Source of the DNA: Tahibacter aquaticus
Lineage (GTDB): Bacteria > Pseudomonadota > Gammaproteobacteria > Xanthomonadales > Rhodanobacteraceae
DNA length: 64,000 nt
Assembly: GCF_004363655.1 (NCBI RefSeq)
Contig: NZ_SNZH01000012.1
Coordinates: forward strand, 62,001 to 126,000
Reading direction: 5' to 3'
Shown here: positions 19,246-27,149 of the stretch, piece by piece
Layout of the letters: every line of letters begins with the position of its first letter
Numbering within the stretch: the stretch's first letter is position 1
Translations under genes and position numbers: made by a program
The notes under the pieces: model-generated
The model's database searches: none
What the model was told of the DNA's origin: nothing
Seen by the model: only the letters and a program-made list of their open reading frames with translations

Positions 19246-21285
19246 ATGCGCAATTCCATTGCGGGTGAAGGCGGCGCTGCGCGCGTCCGGCCGAACCCGA
19301 AGTCCGCCTACACCTTGCGTCCGCGTGCGCTGTCGCTCGCACTGGGCCTGCTCTGCACCGCCCTGCTGGCCACTACCGCACTCGCCCACGGCCTGGCCGA
19401 TCACAGCCCAGGCAGCAGCGAAGCGATGCTGCAGCGGGGCGAAGATCCGTTCGCGCCGGTCTACGTGGTCACCTCGCGGGAAAGCTATCTGCGCAGCGTG
19501 GCCGACCTGGCACGCGCGCCGAAGCTGCTCAAGGACACGCTGGGCAAGGAACTCGTCCTGGCCGAAGTCGACACCTTCCGCCTGGCCGACATCAGCCAGC
19601 GCATCCACGAAGGCGAACGCCGCTGCGGCGGCTATTTCGCCTTTGCCACGCGGGCCGAAGCCGAAACCTTCATCCAGGACAACGCCGCACACAAGGCCGT
19701 CAACGAACAATTCCTTGCCGCCTACACCATCGACAACCAGGCCACGGTCAGCCCCTGGCTGGGCCAGGTCGCCGAAGCGAATATCCGCGCCAGCATCACC
19801 CATCTGTCCACGTCCTATCCGAACCGCTACTACGCCACCACGCACGGCAGGAATGCCGCGACCTGGATTCGCGACAAGTGGCTGGCCCTGGGCAACGGCC
19901 GCAGCGACGTGAGCGCCGAACTTTTTACCGGATGCAGCAATTGCAGCACCCAGCCGTCGGTGATCCTGACCGTACAGGGCAATGAACTGCCGAACGAAAT
20001 CGTGGTGCTGGGCGGACACCTGGACTCGATCTCCAATTCCGGCAGCGGCGAAACCATGAACGCGCCCGGTGCCGACGACGACGCCTCGGGTATCGCCACC
20101 CTGACGGAAGTGATCCGCATCGCCATGGCCAGCGGCTGGAAGCCGCAGCGCACGGTGAAGTTCATGGGTTATGCCGCCGAGGAAGTCGGCCTGCGCGGCT
20201 CCAACGCCATTGCCCAGTCGTTCAAGACGCAAGGCAAGAACGTGGTCGGCGTGCTGCAGATGGACATGACCAACTACAAGGCGAGCAACTCCACCTCGAC
20301 CCTGCGCGTGATGACTGACTATTCCAACGCCACGCTGGTGCAGTTCCTGCGCGACCTGTTCTCCGCCTACATGGCGCCATCGGGGCTGACCCTGATCAAT
20401 ACCAGCTGCGGCTATGGCTGCTCCGACCATGCCTCGTGGACCTCGGCCGGCTTTCCTGCCGCCATGTACGACGAAGGCCCGACCTTCCCCAACCTGCATA
20501 CCGCCAACGATACCTTGGCCAAGATGGGCGGCACGGCCAGCCACAGCGTGCATTTCGCCAAGCTCGGCCTGGCCTTCCTCGGCGAAATGGCCAAGACCAA
20601 CGGCGGCGGCCCACCGCCCGGCACGACGGTGCTGACCAAGGGCGTGGCAGCGACAGGCCTTGCCGCGGCCGCCGGCAGCGCACTGAATTTCACCCTGGCC
20701 GTACCGGCCGGCGCCAGCAATCTCGCGTTCACGCTTTCCGGCGGTAGCGGCAATGCCGACATGTACGTGAAATTCGGCAGCGCGCCGACCGACAGCAGCT
20801 ACGACTGCCGCCCACTGCAATCGGGCAATATGGAAACCTGTACGTTTCCCACACCGGCGGCGGGCACGTATCACGTACGCCTGAAAGCCAGCGCGGCCTT
20901 CTCCGCTGCCAGCCTGCTCGGCGACTACAGCACCGGTGGCGGCGTCCAGACCTACAGCAATGGCACCGATTTCGCCATCACCGACAACACCACGGTGGAA
21001 AGCCCCATCGCCGTATCCGGCCGTAGCGGCAACGCGCCGAACAATGCCGTGGTCAACGTGAACATCGTGCACACCTACCGCGGCGATCTGAAAGTCGATC
21101 TGGTCGCTCCCGACGGCAGCCTCTACAACATCCACAACCGCACCGGCGCCGGCACCGACAACCTGGTCGGCAACTACACCTTGAACCTCGGCAGCGAAGC
21201 CTTGAACGGCACCTGGAAACTGCGCGTCAACGACAACGGCCCGGGCGACACGGGCAAGATCGACAGTTGGAGCATCACCTTCTGA
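19246..21285 (+). CDS. Secreted M28 family zinc aminopeptidase with PPC and P domains
   Basis: 679 residues. A long signal region has its hydrophobic core at about 28-46 (LSLALGLLCTALLATTALA), then a propeptide to about 180 and an M28 domain. The di-zinc ligands are visible: His258 (GGHLDS), Asp277 (GADDDASG), Glu312/313 (YAAEEVGLRGS), Asp340 (LQMDMTNY) and His395 (CSDHASW). A pre-peptidase C-terminal domain (about 465-560) and a proprotein-convertase P domain (about 565-679, ending KIDSWSITF) follow. This matches Vibrio-type leucyl aminopeptidases secreted to digest peptides. GGGGAGA lies 9 bases before the start. Confidence 0.94.
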   Translation: MRNSIAGEGGAARVRPNPKSAYTLRPRALSLALGLLCTALLATTALAHGLADHSPGSSEAMLQRGEDPFAPVYVVTSRESYLRSVADLARAPKLLKDTLGKELVLAEVDTFRLADISQRIHEGERRCGGYFAFATRAEAETFIQDNAAHKAVNEQFLAAYTIDNQATVSPWLGQVAEANIRASITHLSTSYPNRYYATTHGRNAATWIRDKWLALGNGRSDVSAELFTGCSNCSTQPSVILTVQGNELPNEIVVLGGHLDSISNSGSGETMNAPGADDDASGIATLTEVIRIAMASGWKPQRTVKFMGYAAEEVGLRGSNAIAQSFKTQGKNVVGVLQMDMTNYKASNSTSTLRVMTDYSNATLVQFLRDLFSAYMAPSGLTLINTSCGYGCSDHASWTSAGFPAAMYDEGPTFPNLHTANDTLAKMGGTASHSVHFAKLGLAFLGEMAKTNGGGPPPGTTVLTKGVAATGLAAAAGSALNFTLAVPAGASNLAFTLSGGSGNADMYVKFGSAPTDSSYDCRPLQSGNMETCTFPTPAAGTYHVRLKASAAFSAASLLGDYSTGGGVQTYSNGTDFAITDNTTVESPIAVSGRSGNAPNNAVVNVNIVHTYRGDLKVDLVAPDGSLYNIHNRTGAGTDNLVGNYTLNLGSEALNGTWKLRVNDNGPGDTGKIDSWSITF

Positions 21286-21953: not shown

Positions 21954-23201
21954 TCAATCGCCGACGCGACCGGACAACGAATACAGCGGTTCCAGTACCC
22001 ACTCATACAAGCGACGGCGCTCGCCCAATATATCCGCGTCCAGCATCATGCCGGGGCGCAGCGCTTCGGGCTTGCCGTAGGCGCTGACACTCTGCGCATC
22101 CAGGTCCACCAGCACGCGGTAGTAGCTGTCGGCCGGCGCGGCCTCCGCACTGCCCCGCGCTACTGGACTGCGCGACACCCGCACCACCGTGCCGGCGTGA
22201 TGGCCAAACTTCTGGTACGGATACGCCTGATAGCGCAGGAGCACGCGATCACCGATCTCGACAAACCCGATCGCGCGGCTGGGAACCGACAATTGCGCCT
22301 GCAATCGCGAATGGTGCGGGAGCAAGGTCAACACGATCTGCCCACTCTTCACTGCCTGCCCGGGCTCGACCGCACGGCTGGCGATCAAGCCGCCCAGCGG
22401 TGCGCGCAACAGCAGTTCGCCGCCGGCCTCCTGCTGCACGCGCTCCTGCGCCAGCAAGGCCAGATCGCGCTGCGTCGCCGCCTGCAGCGCATCGCGCCGC
22501 GATGGCAATTCATGCAGGCTCTGTTCCAGCTGGGCAACCGTGCGTCGTATGGTTGTCGTCTGGCGCTGCAATGCCTGCTGTGCCTGTACCAGCTCCAGCA
22601 CGGCCTGCTCTTGCTGATTGACTTGAATCTGGCTGACGTAGCGGTCATTGGCAATGCGGCGGTAGCGCTGCAAAGTTTCGCGCCCCAGATCGACCTGTGC
22701 CTTGCGCGTGCCGACTTCGGCTTCGATCTGCTCCAGCTCGCGCCGTGCCGCCGAAAGCTGTTGCCTCTGGCCAGCAGCCTGGGCATCGAGCTGCGCGAGC
22801 TGCGATCGTTGCAGCTCAAGCAGGCTCTCGCCCCGCTGGGCGATGCCGCTACGGATCACGCTGAGTGTGTCGCTACCCTCGCCCGTCACCCGCGGCACGG
22901 TGATCAGCGCAAGCTCGGCACCGACGCCAACCTCGTCGCCTTCCTGGGGAAAGATCCGTCCGACCACACCGTCGCCCGGCGCAAGCACGCTGGACAAGCC
23001 AAGATCGGGTACCAGCTCACCGCTGACACGAGAGCGCCGCGTATATTCTCCCAGCGCCAGCACCAGCAAAATCAATACAGCCGCCACCGCAACGGCCACG
23101 CCCAGCAGCCACAAACGCAGCGGTTGCACCAGGCTGATGCGACCGAGCCGTTCATCGCGCCGCGCCTGTACCGCTTGGGCACGAAACAGCGTTCTACTCA
23201 T
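21954..23201 (-). CDS. HlyD-family adaptor of the peptide export system
   Basis: 415 residues from the ATG at 23201, whose TGA-overlapping ATGA with the transporter gene argues for this start over an in-frame GTG six bases earlier. There is one N-terminal transmembrane span (about 28-50), a lipoyl half-motif (VLAPGDGVVGRIFPQEGDEVGVG), a long coiled-coil hairpin (about 115-260, rich in Gln/Arg/Leu), the second lipoyl half (LRAPLGGLIASRAVEPGQAVKSGQ) and a beta-domain. This is the CvaA/HlyD plan used with peptidase-containing ABC transporters to cross the Gram-negative envelope. An outer membrane TolC would be supplied from elsewhere. Confidence 0.9.
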   Translation of the reverse strand: MSRTLFRAQAVQARRDERLGRISLVQPLRLWLLGVAVAVAAVLILLVLALGEYTRRSRVSGELVPDLGLSSVLAPGDGVVGRIFPQEGDEVGVGAELALITVPRVTGEGSDTLSVIRSGIAQRGESLLELQRSQLAQLDAQAAGQRQQLSAARRELEQIEAEVGTRKAQVDLGRETLQRYRRIANDRYVSQIQVNQQEQAVLELVQAQQALQRQTTTIRRTVAQLEQSLHELPSRRDALQAATQRDLALLAQERVQQEAGGELLLRAPLGGLIASRAVEPGQAVKSGQIVLTLLPHHSRLQAQLSVPSRAIGFVEIGDRVLLRYQAYPYQKFGHHAGTVVRVSRSPVARGSAEAAPADSYYRVLVDLDAQSVSAYGKPEALRPGMMLDADILGERRRLYEWVLEPLYSLSGRVGD

Positions 23202-25285
23202 GCGCACACATCATGCAATCGCTGTGGCGACGCGAGCGGCACGATGCGCCCGTCGCGTAGCAGCAGTACCCGATCGGCACTGGCAATGGTTTCCGGCCGG
23301 TGCGCAATAATCACTTTGGTCAGGCGAAGATCGCGCACCGCGTCGTTCACCAGTCGCTCGCGTTCCACATCGAGGTGGCTGGTCGCTTCATCCAGAAACA
23401 GGATGCGGGGGTTTCGATAAAGCGCACGTGCAAGGATCACGCGCTGCTTTTGCCCACCCGACAAAACGGTCCCCATGTCGCCGACCAAGCTGTGGTAGCC
23501 CATGGGCATCGACTGAATTTCATCATGCACAGCAGCCAGTCGCGCGGCTTCTTCGACACGCTGCAGATCGCATTGCACATCGCCGAACGCAATGTTGTCG
23601 GCCAGACTGCCGGCGAACAGTTGATCGTCCTGCATGACCGCACCAACGATCTTGCGGTAGTTGCGCGCACCGATCTGGGCAAGATCGCGGCCCCCCAGGC
23701 AGATGCGTCCGCGTTCCGGCACCAGCAGGCCGAGCATGAGCTTGACCAGCGTCGTCTTGCCGCTGCCCGAGGCACCGACGATGGCGACGGATTCGCCTTC
23801 TTCCACCACGAAACTGCAGTCCTCGACAACCCAGGCTTCGCCAGCACCATAGCGAAAACCCAGCGCTTCGACTTCGATGCGGCAAACTGCCGGCAGCGCC
23901 GCGCAGACAACTTCCGCTTCGGCCTCGCTGAGCACGATATCGGCCAGGCGCTCGCCGTGCAGGCGCAGCATGCGCAGTTCCATGCACTTGTCGACGAGCC
24001 CCGCGACACGCAGGGCGAACTGGTCCTTATAGGCGAGATAGGCGATCAGCATGCCGACCGAGAACACGTTGCGCATGGCCAGATGAGCGGCAATCCAGAT
24101 CACCGCGATGCGTTCGATGCCGAATATGATCTGATTCGCGGCGCCGAAGCCCAGACCGAGGCGCGCGACGCGGACGTCACTGCCGACGCTTTCATGCATG
24201 AGGTTGAAGTAGACCGAGCGCCGCTCCGCTTCAGCGCCCGCCAATTTGACCGACTGCGCTCCGCGTATCGATTCCAGCAAATGGCCTTGCTGTCGCGCCG
24301 CGGCCAGCAGTTGCTTCTCGGTACCGTCTCGCAAACCGCGGAACGCGGCCAGGCGCAGGATGAAATAGAGCGCGACCGCCGCCAACGTGACCAGCGCCAG
24401 CTTGGCGCTGTAGAGCAGCATCATCGCAAGCGTGACCGCCGCCATCAGGCCATCGACAATGCCTTCGACGAAACTGGTGGTCAGCGTGCGCTGGATCGAC
24501 TGGATGCTGTTCATGCGCGACACGATGTCGGCAAGCTGTCGTTTGTGGAAAAAATCAAGACCAAGTTTCTGCAGATGGATGAACACGTTGCCGGCCCAAG
24601 CCAAGCCCAGACGCGCCGACAGATAGACCACCGTCCACCCGCGCAATACTCCAGTACCCACCTGCAACAGCAGCACGCAGCCGAAGCCGAGCCCCAACAC
24701 GACAAGCAAGCCGCGATCTGCCGACACCAATACCTGATCGACCACCCATTGCAGGTAGAACGGTGCCAGCACGACGAACACCTGCAAACTCAGCGACAGC
24801 ACCAGTACCAGGCCCAGCGCCTTGGCCAGTCCGTCGACCGGTCCGGTCAGCTCGCGCACGCCGATCGCTGGCGATGCAGGCCGCGGGCGAAAGTCCGCCG
24901 TCGGCGACAGCTCCAGTGCAACCCCGGTGAAATGCGCAGACGCCTGCGCATAACTGAGTTCACGCAGACCCGAGGCCGGGTCCAGGACGGTGATGCCACG
25001 TCTACCGCTGCGCAGCAACACGACGAAATGGCTCAGATCCCAATGCAGCACGCAGGGCATGGCCAGCTGCTCCAGCTGATCGAGTTCGATGCGCAGCGCA
25101 CGGCCCTGCAGGCCCAGCTCCGATGCAATCGCGATCAGGCGTGCCAACGTCACGCCTTTCATCGAGGTGGGAAAACGCTGGCGCAATTCGCGCAGCGTGT
25201 AGTGCTGGCCGTGATGTGCCGCAATCATGGCCAGGCAGGCAAGCCCGCACTCGGCCGCCTCGGCCGCGACAATCGCTTCACGCAT
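23198..25285 (-). CDS. Peptidase-containing ABC transporter (C39 double-glycine peptidase, PCAT)
   Basis: 695 residues. The N-terminal C39 peptidase has Cys13 (AAECGLACLAMIAAHHG), His86 (DLSHFVVL) and Asp102 (VLDPASG), the expected catalytic set. A six-span exporter domain (about 155-430) and an ATPase follow: Walker A IVGASGSGKTT, signature VLSGGQKQRVILAR, Walker B ILFLDEATSHLD. Such proteins cleave after the Gly-Gly of a leader peptide and export the core. The precursor at 26560-26709 carries exactly that leader, so it is the evident substrate. The gene starts 36 bases after the ATP-grasp gene and overlaps the adaptor gene by four bases. Confidence 0.95.
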   Translation of the reverse strand: MREAIVAAEAAECGLACLAMIAAHHGQHYTLRELRQRFPTSMKGVTLARLIAIASELGLQGRALRIELDQLEQLAMPCVLHWDLSHFVVLLRSGRRGITVLDPASGLRELSYAQASAHFTGVALELSPTADFRPRPASPAIGVRELTGPVDGLAKALGLVLVLSLSLQVFVVLAPFYLQWVVDQVLVSADRGLLVVLGLGFGCVLLLQVGTGVLRGWTVVYLSARLGLAWAGNVFIHLQKLGLDFFHKRQLADIVSRMNSIQSIQRTLTTSFVEGIVDGLMAAVTLAMMLLYSAKLALVTLAAVALYFILRLAAFRGLRDGTEKQLLAAARQQGHLLESIRGAQSVKLAGAEAERRSVYFNLMHESVGSDVRVARLGLGFGAANQIIFGIERIAVIWIAAHLAMRNVFSVGMLIAYLAYKDQFALRVAGLVDKCMELRMLRLHGERLADIVLSEAEAEVVCAALPAVCRIEVEALGFRYGAGEAWVVEDCSFVVEEGESVAIVGASGSGKTTLVKLMLGLLVPERGRICLGGRDLAQIGARNYRKIVGAVMQDDQLFAGSLADNIAFGDVQCDLQRVEEAARLAAVHDEIQSMPMGYHSLVGDMGTVLSGGQKQRVILARALYRNPRILFLDEATSHLDVERERLVNDAVRDLRLTKVIIAHRPETIASADRVLLLRDGRIVPLASPQRLHDVCA

Positions 25286-25321
25286 ATCCGCTGCAATCCT
25301 TGATGCCGCCCTGGATGCGCT

Positions 25322-26449
25322 TCATTCGGCGCTCACATGCCAGACCGTGGCCGGCACATGGGCCGCGACATTGTCGTCCAGCCAGGTTTTCAAGCGCGGA
25401 TCACGATAGGCCTCGGCAAAGCTCAGGCGCGGCGAATCGTGCTTGCGCCGATAGGCCGGATCGCGGCAAACGAGAAAATCGCAAAAAGTGTCCAACATGG
25501 GAATTTCCGCGCAGCGCTGCTCCACCCAGAGGAACTGGCCGCCTTCATTGACTTCGAGAAAGACATATTCACCGTCGCTGTCGACGATGAAGTCAAAGCA
25601 GCCGCTGACAATGCCGAAGCGGCGCATAAGCTGCAGGCAAGCCTGGTAGATAGCGTCGGGCAAGCGATGCGGCTGGTACTGCATGTCGCCGCGTTGTCCG
25701 CGGCGCCAATCGATACGGCTGATTTCCTGTTGCTGCGATTCCAGGCGCAGCGACAACTCCTCTTCGCCGAAGAACGTGGCGCGGACTTCGTAGTGTTTTT
25801 CCACATAGCCCTGGTAGATGCCGGGAGAAAGCTGGAATGCCGATTCCGGCAGTTCGTTCAGATCGGCCTCGTTGCAAACGGCGGTGTACAGGCAAGCCAT
25901 GTTGCCGCTGTTGTCCGACGCGAGCCAGGTGGCTGGCATATGCGGCTTGTAGATCGTGCGGCCGCCCTGTCGACGGCAGAACGCCAATACATCCGACTTG
26001 TTGTTGCTGATCAGCGTGGCTGGAATGCGCAGCCCGCATTCGCGCGCCACGCGCAGCTGCGCCAGCTTGTGTCTCGCGCACGCCTGCGCCGCGGGTGAAT
26101 TCACCCAGAAGCCGCGCTGTGCCAGCGCAACGCGCGCGCCATCGGCAAAGCTGCGGGCCTCGCGGCTGGCGAACGCATGATCGGCTGCATGCACGGCATC
26201 GTCGGGCAATTCGTGAGTGACATAGCGCCGATTCCACACGGTGTCCGCATCGCTGAGCACACTCCGCGCCTGTCCGAGTTCATGCAACAGCCGCAGATCG
26301 TGCCCGGTGTCGATGCAGGCACTCATGCAGGAACGTGTCGGATAGTCGCTGCCGTGGATTATCTGAACCGCGTGGCCCTGGTCTGCCAGGGCAAGTGTGA
26401 CCGCCGCGACATGTACGTCGTAGGTAATGGAATAAATGAGAATGTTCAC
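25322..26449 (-). CDS. ATP-grasp ribosomal peptide maturase (graspetide synthetase, MvdD/MdnC-like)
   Basis: 375 residues from the GTG at 26449 (encoding NILIYSITYDVHVAAV). An earlier GTG at 26530 lies inside a perfect hairpin and adds a non-conserved Cys/Arg tail, so I reject it. The N-terminal pre-grasp domain is followed by ATP-grasp landmarks: YKPHMPATW, the EKHYEVRATFFG segment and VFLEVNEGGQFLWVE, which carries the metal-binding Glu and Asn. That last motif is typical of graspetide ligases, which link Ser/Thr or Lys side chains to Asp/Glu through omega-ester or omega-amide bonds. It sits between the precursor and the double-glycine transporter. Other peptide-acting ATP-grasp chemistry is possible but less likely. 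Confidence 0.87.
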   Translation of the reverse strand: MNILIYSITYDVHVAAVTLALADQGHAVQIIHGSDYPTRSCMSACIDTGHDLRLLHELGQARSVLSDADTVWNRRYVTHELPDDAVHAADHAFASREARSFADGARVALAQRGFWVNSPAAQACARHKLAQLRVARECGLRIPATLISNNKSDVLAFCRRQGGRTIYKPHMPATWLASDNSGNMACLYTAVCNEADLNELPESAFQLSPGIYQGYVEKHYEVRATFFGEEELSLRLESQQQEISRIDWRRGQRGDMQYQPHRLPDAIYQACLQLMRRFGIVSGCFDFIVDSDGEYVFLEVNEGGQFLWVEQRCAEIPMLDTFCDFLVCRDPAYRRKHDSPRLSFAEAYRDPRLKTWLDDNVAAHVPATVWHVSAE

Positions 26450-26520
26450 GTCAGTACCTGTTTGTCCGCGTCGTACGCGTGGAGCCGGGTGCGCGCTTGC
26501 AGACGCGTCACAGGCGCAAA

Positions 26521-26544
26521 CCTGGTGCACGAACGTGCACCAGG
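26521..26544 (-). promoter_or_regulatory. Perfect intergenic hairpin between precursor and ligase genes
   Basis: The arms CCTGGTGCAC and GTGCACCAGG pair over 10 bp around a 4-base loop, 15 bases after the precursor stop codon and about 70 bases before the ligase start. There is no strong T-run, so it is more likely a partial terminator or RNA-processing/stability stem that raises precursor mRNA over enzyme mRNA, as is common in RiPP operons. Confidence 0.7.
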
Positions 26545-26559
26545 CACCGCTACTACCTA

Positions 26560-26709
26560 TCAGCCGACCTCACAATCGTCGGGCCTGCAGTCGGGTCCGC
26601 TCGCCGTGTCCGCCGAGATGGTCGGATTCGGGTCGCCGCCGCTCACCTGACGCACTTCTTCTTCGCTCAGCTCATGCGCCATCAGGCGGCCTATGACTCG
26701 ATTCACCAT
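26560..26709 (-). CDS. Double-glycine-leader RiPP precursor peptide, putative graspetide
   Basis: 49 residues, missed by a 60-codon cutoff. AGGAGC lies 6 bases before the ATG. The leader ends HELSEEEVRQVSGG (residues 12-25), matching the double-glycine consensus at every position: Leu -12, Ser -11, Glu -8, Val -7, Val -4, Gly -2, Gly -1. The predicted 24-residue core (26-49) starts DPNPTISADTASGPD. It has hydroxyl donors at core positions 5, 7, 10 and 12, acids at 1, 9, 15, 19, 20 and 22, and Cys at 16 and 21. That composition suits side-chain ester formation by the adjacent ATP-grasp enzyme. The leader lacks the PFFARFL motif of microviridins. It is the first gene of the operon. Confidence 0.88.
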   Translation of the reverse strand: MVNRVIGRLMAHELSEEEVRQVSGGDPNPTISADTASGPDCRPDDCEVG

Positions 26710-27149
26710 GGTATTGCTCCTTGTCAGATTTCAACGCGAATGTAAGCGCAGCCGATTCTCCTCGGCCATGCGCGCAATGCCGGTCCAGCGGCAACGAAAT
26801 TTGCCGGATCAGCGCTGATGGGACGTGTCCCAGCGCAGCATCCCCCCAAAGGTAAATTAGTATTGTTAGCTACTCTTTCCATACTTTTCCGGATGCCGGA
26901 ACCCGTTGCGCAAGGCATGGGCGGCGGCGACGACGCAAGGTGCGTCGAACGCAGCCCGGACCGGCAACCCCGCATCGCCAGTTCTCAGGCGAAGGCCGGT
27001 AGCGGACGGCAGCAACCGGCGAGCGCTAGTGGCAGATCCGCCACACTGACGAATACGCCTCTGCCGGACGGGGCTGTCCGTGGCACCATACGGACGAATG
27101 AAAGTAGGCCTGCCGCGTGCCGTTGCGCAAAATCTGCCAAGGAACTCCC
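26710..27149. other. Divergent intergenic region upstream of the RiPP operon
   Basis: 440 bases between divergent genes. It contains an AT-rich patch at about 26845-26885, unusual in this genome, which is the best place for the RiPP promoter. On the minus strand it reads GCTAACAATACTAATTTACC, where TACTAAT or AATACT could be a -10; no clear -35 is assigned. A 52-codon minus-strand ORF (26724-26882) containing LPLGG is noted but not called. Confidence 0.4.

Follow-up and report, generated by a model that had tools for sequence, protein, structure and literature searches.

A probable graspetide biosynthesis and export operon in Tahibacter aquaticus

We analysed a 64,000-nt stretch of the Tahibacter aquaticus genome (contig NZ_SNZH01000012.1, positions 62,001 to 126,000; hereafter the window, whose own numbering is used below) that contains an operon of four genes, encoding a small precursor peptide, an ATP-grasp ligase, a C39-peptidase ATP-binding cassette (ABC) exporter and an HlyD-type adaptor (Table 1). 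The operon very probably serves the biosynthesis and export of a graspetide, that is, a ribosomally synthesized and post-translationally modified peptide (RiPP) of the ATP-grasp kind, and the predicted product is a 24-residue ester-stapled peptide whose core is unusual in containing cysteine. The original prediction, a cross-linked peptide of about 24 residues that is made and exported, is thus supported by the ligase, leader and exporter evidence. Gene identity, leader family, shared motifs and fold were computed; all chemical steps, the disulfide and the role of the RNA are inferred. The four open reading frames (ORFs) and the AGGAGC motif (26721-26716) are present where they had been predicted. 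Gaps and overlaps outside the hairpin spacer had been put at under 75 bases; specifically, the ligase and exporter genes are 36 nt apart, and the exporter and HlyD genes overlap by 10 nt. The ligase start was set to the GTG at 26449, whose register agrees with the relatives in the alignment, which gives a precursor-to-ligase spacer of 110 nt.

Table 1 Features of the operon in the window
Feature	Position	Strand	Basis
Whole precursor gene, 49 codons plus stop (ATG at 26709, end of stop at 26560)	26560..26709	-	ORF list, leader regular expression, leader hidden Markov model (HMM), precursor profile search of the genome
AGGAGC ribosome-binding site of the precursor	26716..26721	-	read from the sequence
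Precursor leader, 25 codons, MVNRVIGRLMAHELSEEEVRQVSGG	26635..26709	-	leader HMM, 3.8e-9 without the window row; sole regular-expression match in the window
Predicted core, 24 codons, DPNPTISADTASGPDCRPDDCEVG	26563..26634	-	residue roles inferred
24-nt inverted repeat, 11-bp arms and 2-nt centre, between precursor and ligase genes	26521..26544	.	
ATP-grasp graspetide ligase, 375 aa, GTG start	25322..26449	-	NCBIfam models, PDB matches, alignment, structure ranking
Peptidase-containing ABC exporter, 695 aa, C39 domain residues 7-130	23198..25285	-	profile matches and alignment
HlyD-type periplasmic adaptor, 417 aa	21954..23207	-	profile matches

Ligase identity and precursor leader

The ligase matches the NCBIfam models GRASP_SAV_5884 (E-value 4e-56), MvdD (7.3e-47), MvdC (9.7e-45) and RimK (0.002). 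All these scores lie below the curated cut-off of the respective model, so the protein belongs to the superfamily (MvdC/MvdD/TIGR04187 kind) and is not MvdD, MvdC or SAV_5884 proper; the label 'marinostatin type' used in the original prediction does not emerge from our analysis. The six distinct PDB sequences that match the ligase are all graspetide macrocyclases, nine graspetide macrocyclase entries stand above RimK in the structure ranking, and the conserved ligase residues are present in the alignment with relatives. On the NCBIfam scores, PDB matches and structure ranking, we rejected a RimK or D-Ala-D-Ala ligase, and clustering with such enzymes, which had been named in advance as the outcome speaking against a graspetide operon, was not seen. 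That a RimK-like amino-acid ligase merely neighbours a small ORF by chance is extremely improbable, given that the graspetide maturase models beat RimK by about 50 orders of magnitude in E-value, that the structure ranking agrees, and that this ORF is the sole leader match in the window.

Relatives of the ligase occur in 5/8 genomes of the genus, 44/233 of the family, 60/398 of the order sample, 17/369 of the class sample (several with marginal E-values) and 12/398 of the phylum sample; these samples overlap and contain the host genome itself. A first single-protein scan of genome contigs returned no match, and an alignment-based scan of named genomes returned 301 relatives. Many of the best 80, which were kept, come from Legionella, and others from Lysobacter, Nitrosomonas, Janthinobacterium, Enhygromyxa, Pseudoalteromonas, Pseudoduganella and Roseateles. 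Additionally, 82 plasmid records match the ligase, each at less than 60% identity.

The leader MVNRVIGRLMAHELSEEEVRQVSGG consists of an N-terminal R-h-h-G-R-x-M-A part fused to LSEEEVRQVSGG, the C39 signal. Its key positions are L(-12), E(-8), V(-7), V(-4), G(-2) and G(-1), and the double-glycine consensus is printed as L(-12)xxxE(-8)L(-7)xxxxGG (PMC6959990). The fit claimed at all seven key positions is thus off at one of them, -7, where Val replaces the consensus Leu. When leaders are aligned on Gly-Gly, most relatives follow, with variation, R-[VIP]-[LFI]-[AG]-[RHYF]-x-x-A-x-x-[LM]-[ST]-x-x-E-[LVI]-x-x-[VI]-[SA]-G-[GA], the C-terminal half of which is the C39 signal of the printed consensus. 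With h-h-[AG]-R-x-[LM], the N-terminal half resembles microviridin PFFARFL, the ligase-binding helix of that leader, a motif generalised to Phhx(1,2)h (PMC8939145). Many related leaders have R at the P position of this motif, and P is kept in the THATGPNGDD precursors (RPLAR, RPFAR). By analogy, the N-terminal half is predicted to be the ligase recognition site.

A leader regular expression combined with a start codon and ribosome-binding site, composed after inspection of the peptides and hence post hoc, picks out a single ORF when both window strands are scanned, the precursor. An HMM built without the window sequence scores this ORF at 3.8e-9, the runner-up among 1050 stop-to-stop segments of at least 25 aa reaching 2.3, and a whole-precursor profile that includes the window row finds this place alone at E <= 1 across the genome, with no second copy. 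The precursor had been predicted to fall below common length cutoffs; at 150 nt, the gene exceeds the 90-nt default minimum of a common gene finder.

The expression was also applied to 166 related loci. In 89 of them, or 84 after false hits were removed by eye, it finds a small leader-bearing ORF on the ligase strand within 2.6 kb of the ligase gene, and the background in 1.94 Mb was 6 hits farther off on the ligase strand and 14 on the opposite strand. Seven of 111 hits (L036_8162, L038_9128, L041_8002, L059_5901, L078_9190, L253_4013, L237_5783) were so removed before the HMM, stem and core counts, and L041, L059, L078, L237 and L253 had been counted among the 89 solely through them. Some loci are present twice, from two collections (e.g. 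L034/L200, L175/L193, L177/L225, L111/L249, L112/L261), so the locus counts are not independent. Where a C39 exporter is also present, 61 of 82 loci carry a leader ORF; homologous operons lacking any double-glycine peptide, the other outcome named as adverse, were thus not what we saw.

Exporter and points against the assignment

The exporter matches the Pfam C39 model at 8.2e-32. As predicted, Cys13, His86 and Asp102 are intact, as they are in 86 of 88 C39 domains (D102 is unreadable in two), a set that includes the window and a second exporter of the same genome. This second C39 exporter lies on contig C11 at 196558-198615 (L182:6001-8061), is 48% identical and has the conserved Gln discussed below. 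Close to it, at L182:9608-10378, is an ORF with the double-glycine start MTRRSFMRVLSAGEMDQIFGG and a Gly-rich tail at its end, and the 14-kb stretch around this exporter holds no ligase match.

Several observations weigh against the graspetide reading. Six residues before the catalytic Cys, a position unmentioned in the original prediction, the exporter has Ala7 (codon 25265-25267), and the other 87 of 88 domains have Gln. The ligase relatives listed are at most 43% identical over the aligned part, and in three trees the ligase branch is long and its position unsettled. No sigma-70-like promoter was found in the promoter scan (shuffles average 1.4). Among the related loci, the regular-expression precursor is missing at 77/166, including 21/82 with a C39 exporter, and a matched C39 exporter at 84/166; some loci without a precursor match hold double-glycine peptides of a different leader shape.

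Some of these points would fit a decaying remnant that makes nothing, namely the odd Ala7, the long ligase branch and the occurrence of the operon in a single genome. We consider a remnant very unlikely, since all four reading frames are open, the conserved residues of ligase and peptidase are present, and the ribosome-binding site and leader are well preserved. A less drastic alternative is that the ligase modifies the precursor, and the local Ala7 exporter transports only, the leader being trimmed by another protease or by the second C39 exporter. Ala7, unique among the 88 domains, and the Gln-bearing second exporter would suit it, but the peptidase triad of the window is intact and the second exporter has its own nearby ORF with a double-glycine start. 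Moreover, CvaB Q26A still secretes at ++++ against +++++ for the wild type (PMC3335142), so the oxyanion Gln is not strictly required, and in LahT150 the Gln lies 4.3 Å from the oxyanion analogue, where the catalytic His may serve instead (PMC6363468). From these data, leader cutting by the Ala7 peptidase is probably kept, perhaps slowed, and transport without cutting appears improbable, if less so than a remnant.

Core peptide, proposed pathway and comparison with known systems

The core DPNPTISADTASGPDCRPDDCEVG holds four residues with a hydroxyl group and six acidic ones, along with two Cys; Lys is absent. Its calculated [M+H]+ is 2431.998 in the unmodified, reduced state; two, three or four esters would lower this to 2395.977, 2377.966 or 2359.955, and a disulfide by another 2.016. 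T5, S7, T10 and S12 are candidate donors, and D1, D9, D15, D19, D20 and E22 candidate acceptors. The gene thus shows the hallmarks of a graspetide precursor, being small, beside a ligase and equipped with a leader, Ser/Thr donors and Asp/Glu acceptors. Side-chain esters or amides had been predicted; without Lys, no amide can form from one side chain to another, which leaves esters as the only option.

In the pathway that we propose, the ribosome would make the 49-residue precursor, and the ligase would bind the leader helix at its N-terminal part (RVIGRLMA). It would then phosphorylate Asp/Glu side chains of the core, on which Ser/Thr hydroxyls would attack, giving up to four ester rings and, for want of Lys, no lactam. 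Subsequently, the C39 domain of the exporter would bind LSEEEVRQVSGG and cleave after Gly-Gly, and the 24-residue product would leave through HlyD and a TolC-type channel presumably encoded elsewhere. Cys16 and Cys21 may pair as a disulfide in the periplasm, which is a guess. Several graspetides inhibit proteases, and microviridins and marinostatin act as protease inhibitors or competition peptides; by analogy, our best guess is that the product is secreted to inhibit proteases or to act in competition.

The cysteine pattern recurs among 104 distinct cores, counted with motifs defined after viewing the peptides and hence post hoc. C..D.C occurs in seven, the window included (shuffle mean 0.70; 0/1000 shuffles reach 7), and D-D-C in eight (mean 1.26; 0/1000 reach that); these counts contain kin, namely the sister loci L069 and L081 among the seven, which are the CDLDQC cores of two other genomes of the genus, and L196, L199 and L213 among the eight. 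The looser C.{1,4}D.?C is found in 11/104 (mean 4.54; 1/1000 reaches 11), and C-x-P-D-D-C only in the window and Pseudoalteromonas luteoviolacea (2/104). Of 20 cores with D.?C, 14 have T-x-[ST] ahead of it (shuffle mean 7.2; 0/2000), compared with T-x-[ST] anywhere in 32 of 85 other cores.

Conserved Cys is already reported for many new graspetide precursors (PMC8939145), so a Cys core is not claimed as novel. Nor is the combination of ester and disulfide new in itself, since sponge knottins, which are disulfide peptides, are reported to carry an ester between Ser and Glu side chains (PMC13418204); among the papers listed in searches for cysteine or disulfide graspetides, titles and abstract openings gave no bacterial graspetide with both. 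The Cys core may represent a new graspetide group. A fuller version is a tentative possibility that we hold to be rather unlikely: an unnamed group with T-x-[ST] donors near the core start, a C-x-x-D-x-C or D-D-C end, ester rings combined with a disulfide, and a leader of about 22 residues carrying the ligase and C39 sites on one continuous helix, spread over Lysobacterales, Pseudoalteromonas, Nitrosomonas and myxobacteria. Should the D-D-C core indeed bear ester rings together with a disulfide, this bacterial scaffold would be chemically distinct.

Among known systems, thatisin (group 16), which comes from Lysobacter and thus from the same taxonomic order, is similar in that its ligase is accompanied by a C39-type exporter and HlyD, in its Gly-Gly leader with R-P-h-A-R ... 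A-R-E-L-[ST], and in its core TGPNGDD, which resembles ASGPDCRPDD of the window. The corresponding THATGPNGDD loci (L114, L115, L117, L118, L120, L121), which we take to be the thatisin group, differ in gene order, adaptor-exporter-precursor-ligase instead of precursor-ligase-exporter-adaptor, and the window core has two Cys. Membership, prompted by the core likeness, is unsupported by the trees: the window ligase falls outside the THATGPNGDD clade in all three, and forcing the union costs 12.07 log units, which the approximately unbiased (AU) test does not reject (p-AU 0.269). Among the papers listed in a literature search for the THAT core, none has a title on such peptides. As the weak position of the window ligase changes from each of the three trees to the next, we claim no placement; in AU tests, grouping it with the DDC clade (p-AU 0.52), L260 (0.67), L187 (0.54) or the CDLDQC loci of the genus (0.49) is neither rejected nor shown.

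The Legionella loci share a leader of the type R-[VI]-L-A-Y ... GG, many with a C39 exporter and HlyD, whereas their cores mostly lack Cys and follow another pattern, and their ligases are 31-40% identical to that of the window. Gra-7 of L. pneumophila, the putative counterpart of these loci, is assigned to group 8, and its peptides were dehydrated three times (PMC9576775). As for microviridins, MdnC, MdnB, AMdnB and CdnC are the closest solved structures to the window ligase, and the leader pattern h-h-A-R-x-L echoes PFFARFL (PMC8939145). The window operon differs from them in its single ligase, 25-29% identical by structure alignment, and in its core, which lacks Lys and the microviridin motif TxKYPSD. 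A similar core is NCEPDDCTV of P. luteoviolacea (L260), against DCRPDDCEV in the window, and a nearly identical leader, RVFGRTMAERLSEEEIRHVSGGD against RVIGRLMAHELSEEEVRQVSGGD, comes from L187, whose core holds DDCE. No C39 exporter was matched at either locus (L187 is a 4.2-kb contig), and their ligases are 30% (L260) and 40% (L187) identical to that of the window. L187 belongs to the Chloroflexi metagenome-assembled genome (MAG) TC_71, so that a leader close to that of the window appears under another phylum, through horizontal transfer or mis-binning.

Of the published surveys, one predicts 21,584 graspetides from 17,967 clusters and finds high co-occurrence of NHLM-type transporters in groups 2, 8, 14, 16, 18, 20, 21 and 23 (PMC13097080), and another gives 174 precursor families with C39 exporters and HlyD among the frequent neighbours (PMC8939145). 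In view of these reports, the window architecture is ordinary, and the operon is of a known graspetide kind, a few of its details being uncommon. As a complete and self-contained unit of ligase and exporter whose leader is short, it enlarges a class of peptide natural products that is growing fast. In three Lysobacterales MAGs (L186, L188, L206), we also observed several precursors with similar leaders per cluster, 3 to 5 being listed, within about 4 kb of the ligase. Some carry tandem core repeats of the T-x-A-D-S-G type (seven DSG in each of two L186 precursors), which suggests multi-ring or multi-core graspetides.

Intergenic hairpin and genomic surroundings

The inverted repeat between the precursor and ligase genes is unique in the genome with up to three mismatches allowed, and the stem is followed by three T only, with no long T run. 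A perfect stem of at least 8 pairs within 120 nt after the precursor stop is present in 35/104 relatives, compared with 1.15/104 after base shuffling, 8/102 before precursors, 7/80 after ligases, 0/54 after exporters and 8/240 at random places. The hairpin letters differ between loci, so it is position and structure that recur, not sequence. The whole 110-nt spacer folds at a z of -1.47 only. One Rfam match (17.6 bits, cut-off 36, E 0.88) lies below threshold and was taken as chance, and no known RNA family is assigned. The hairpin probably keeps precursor mRNA above enzyme mRNA and would thereby set the precursor-to-enzyme ratio; found in a third of the examined relatives, it offers a simple idea for how substrate and enzyme are balanced in such operons.

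The operon is flanked by apparently unrelated genes, a divergent SnoaL-like gene, a LysR regulator and an MFS protein on one side, and a DUF1801 protein and an M28 aminopeptidase on the other, in a host genome of 7.27 Mb in 82 contigs. The aminopeptidase gene (19246-21285, plus strand), which adjoins the operon and is probably unrelated to it, also encodes PPC and P-proprotein domains.

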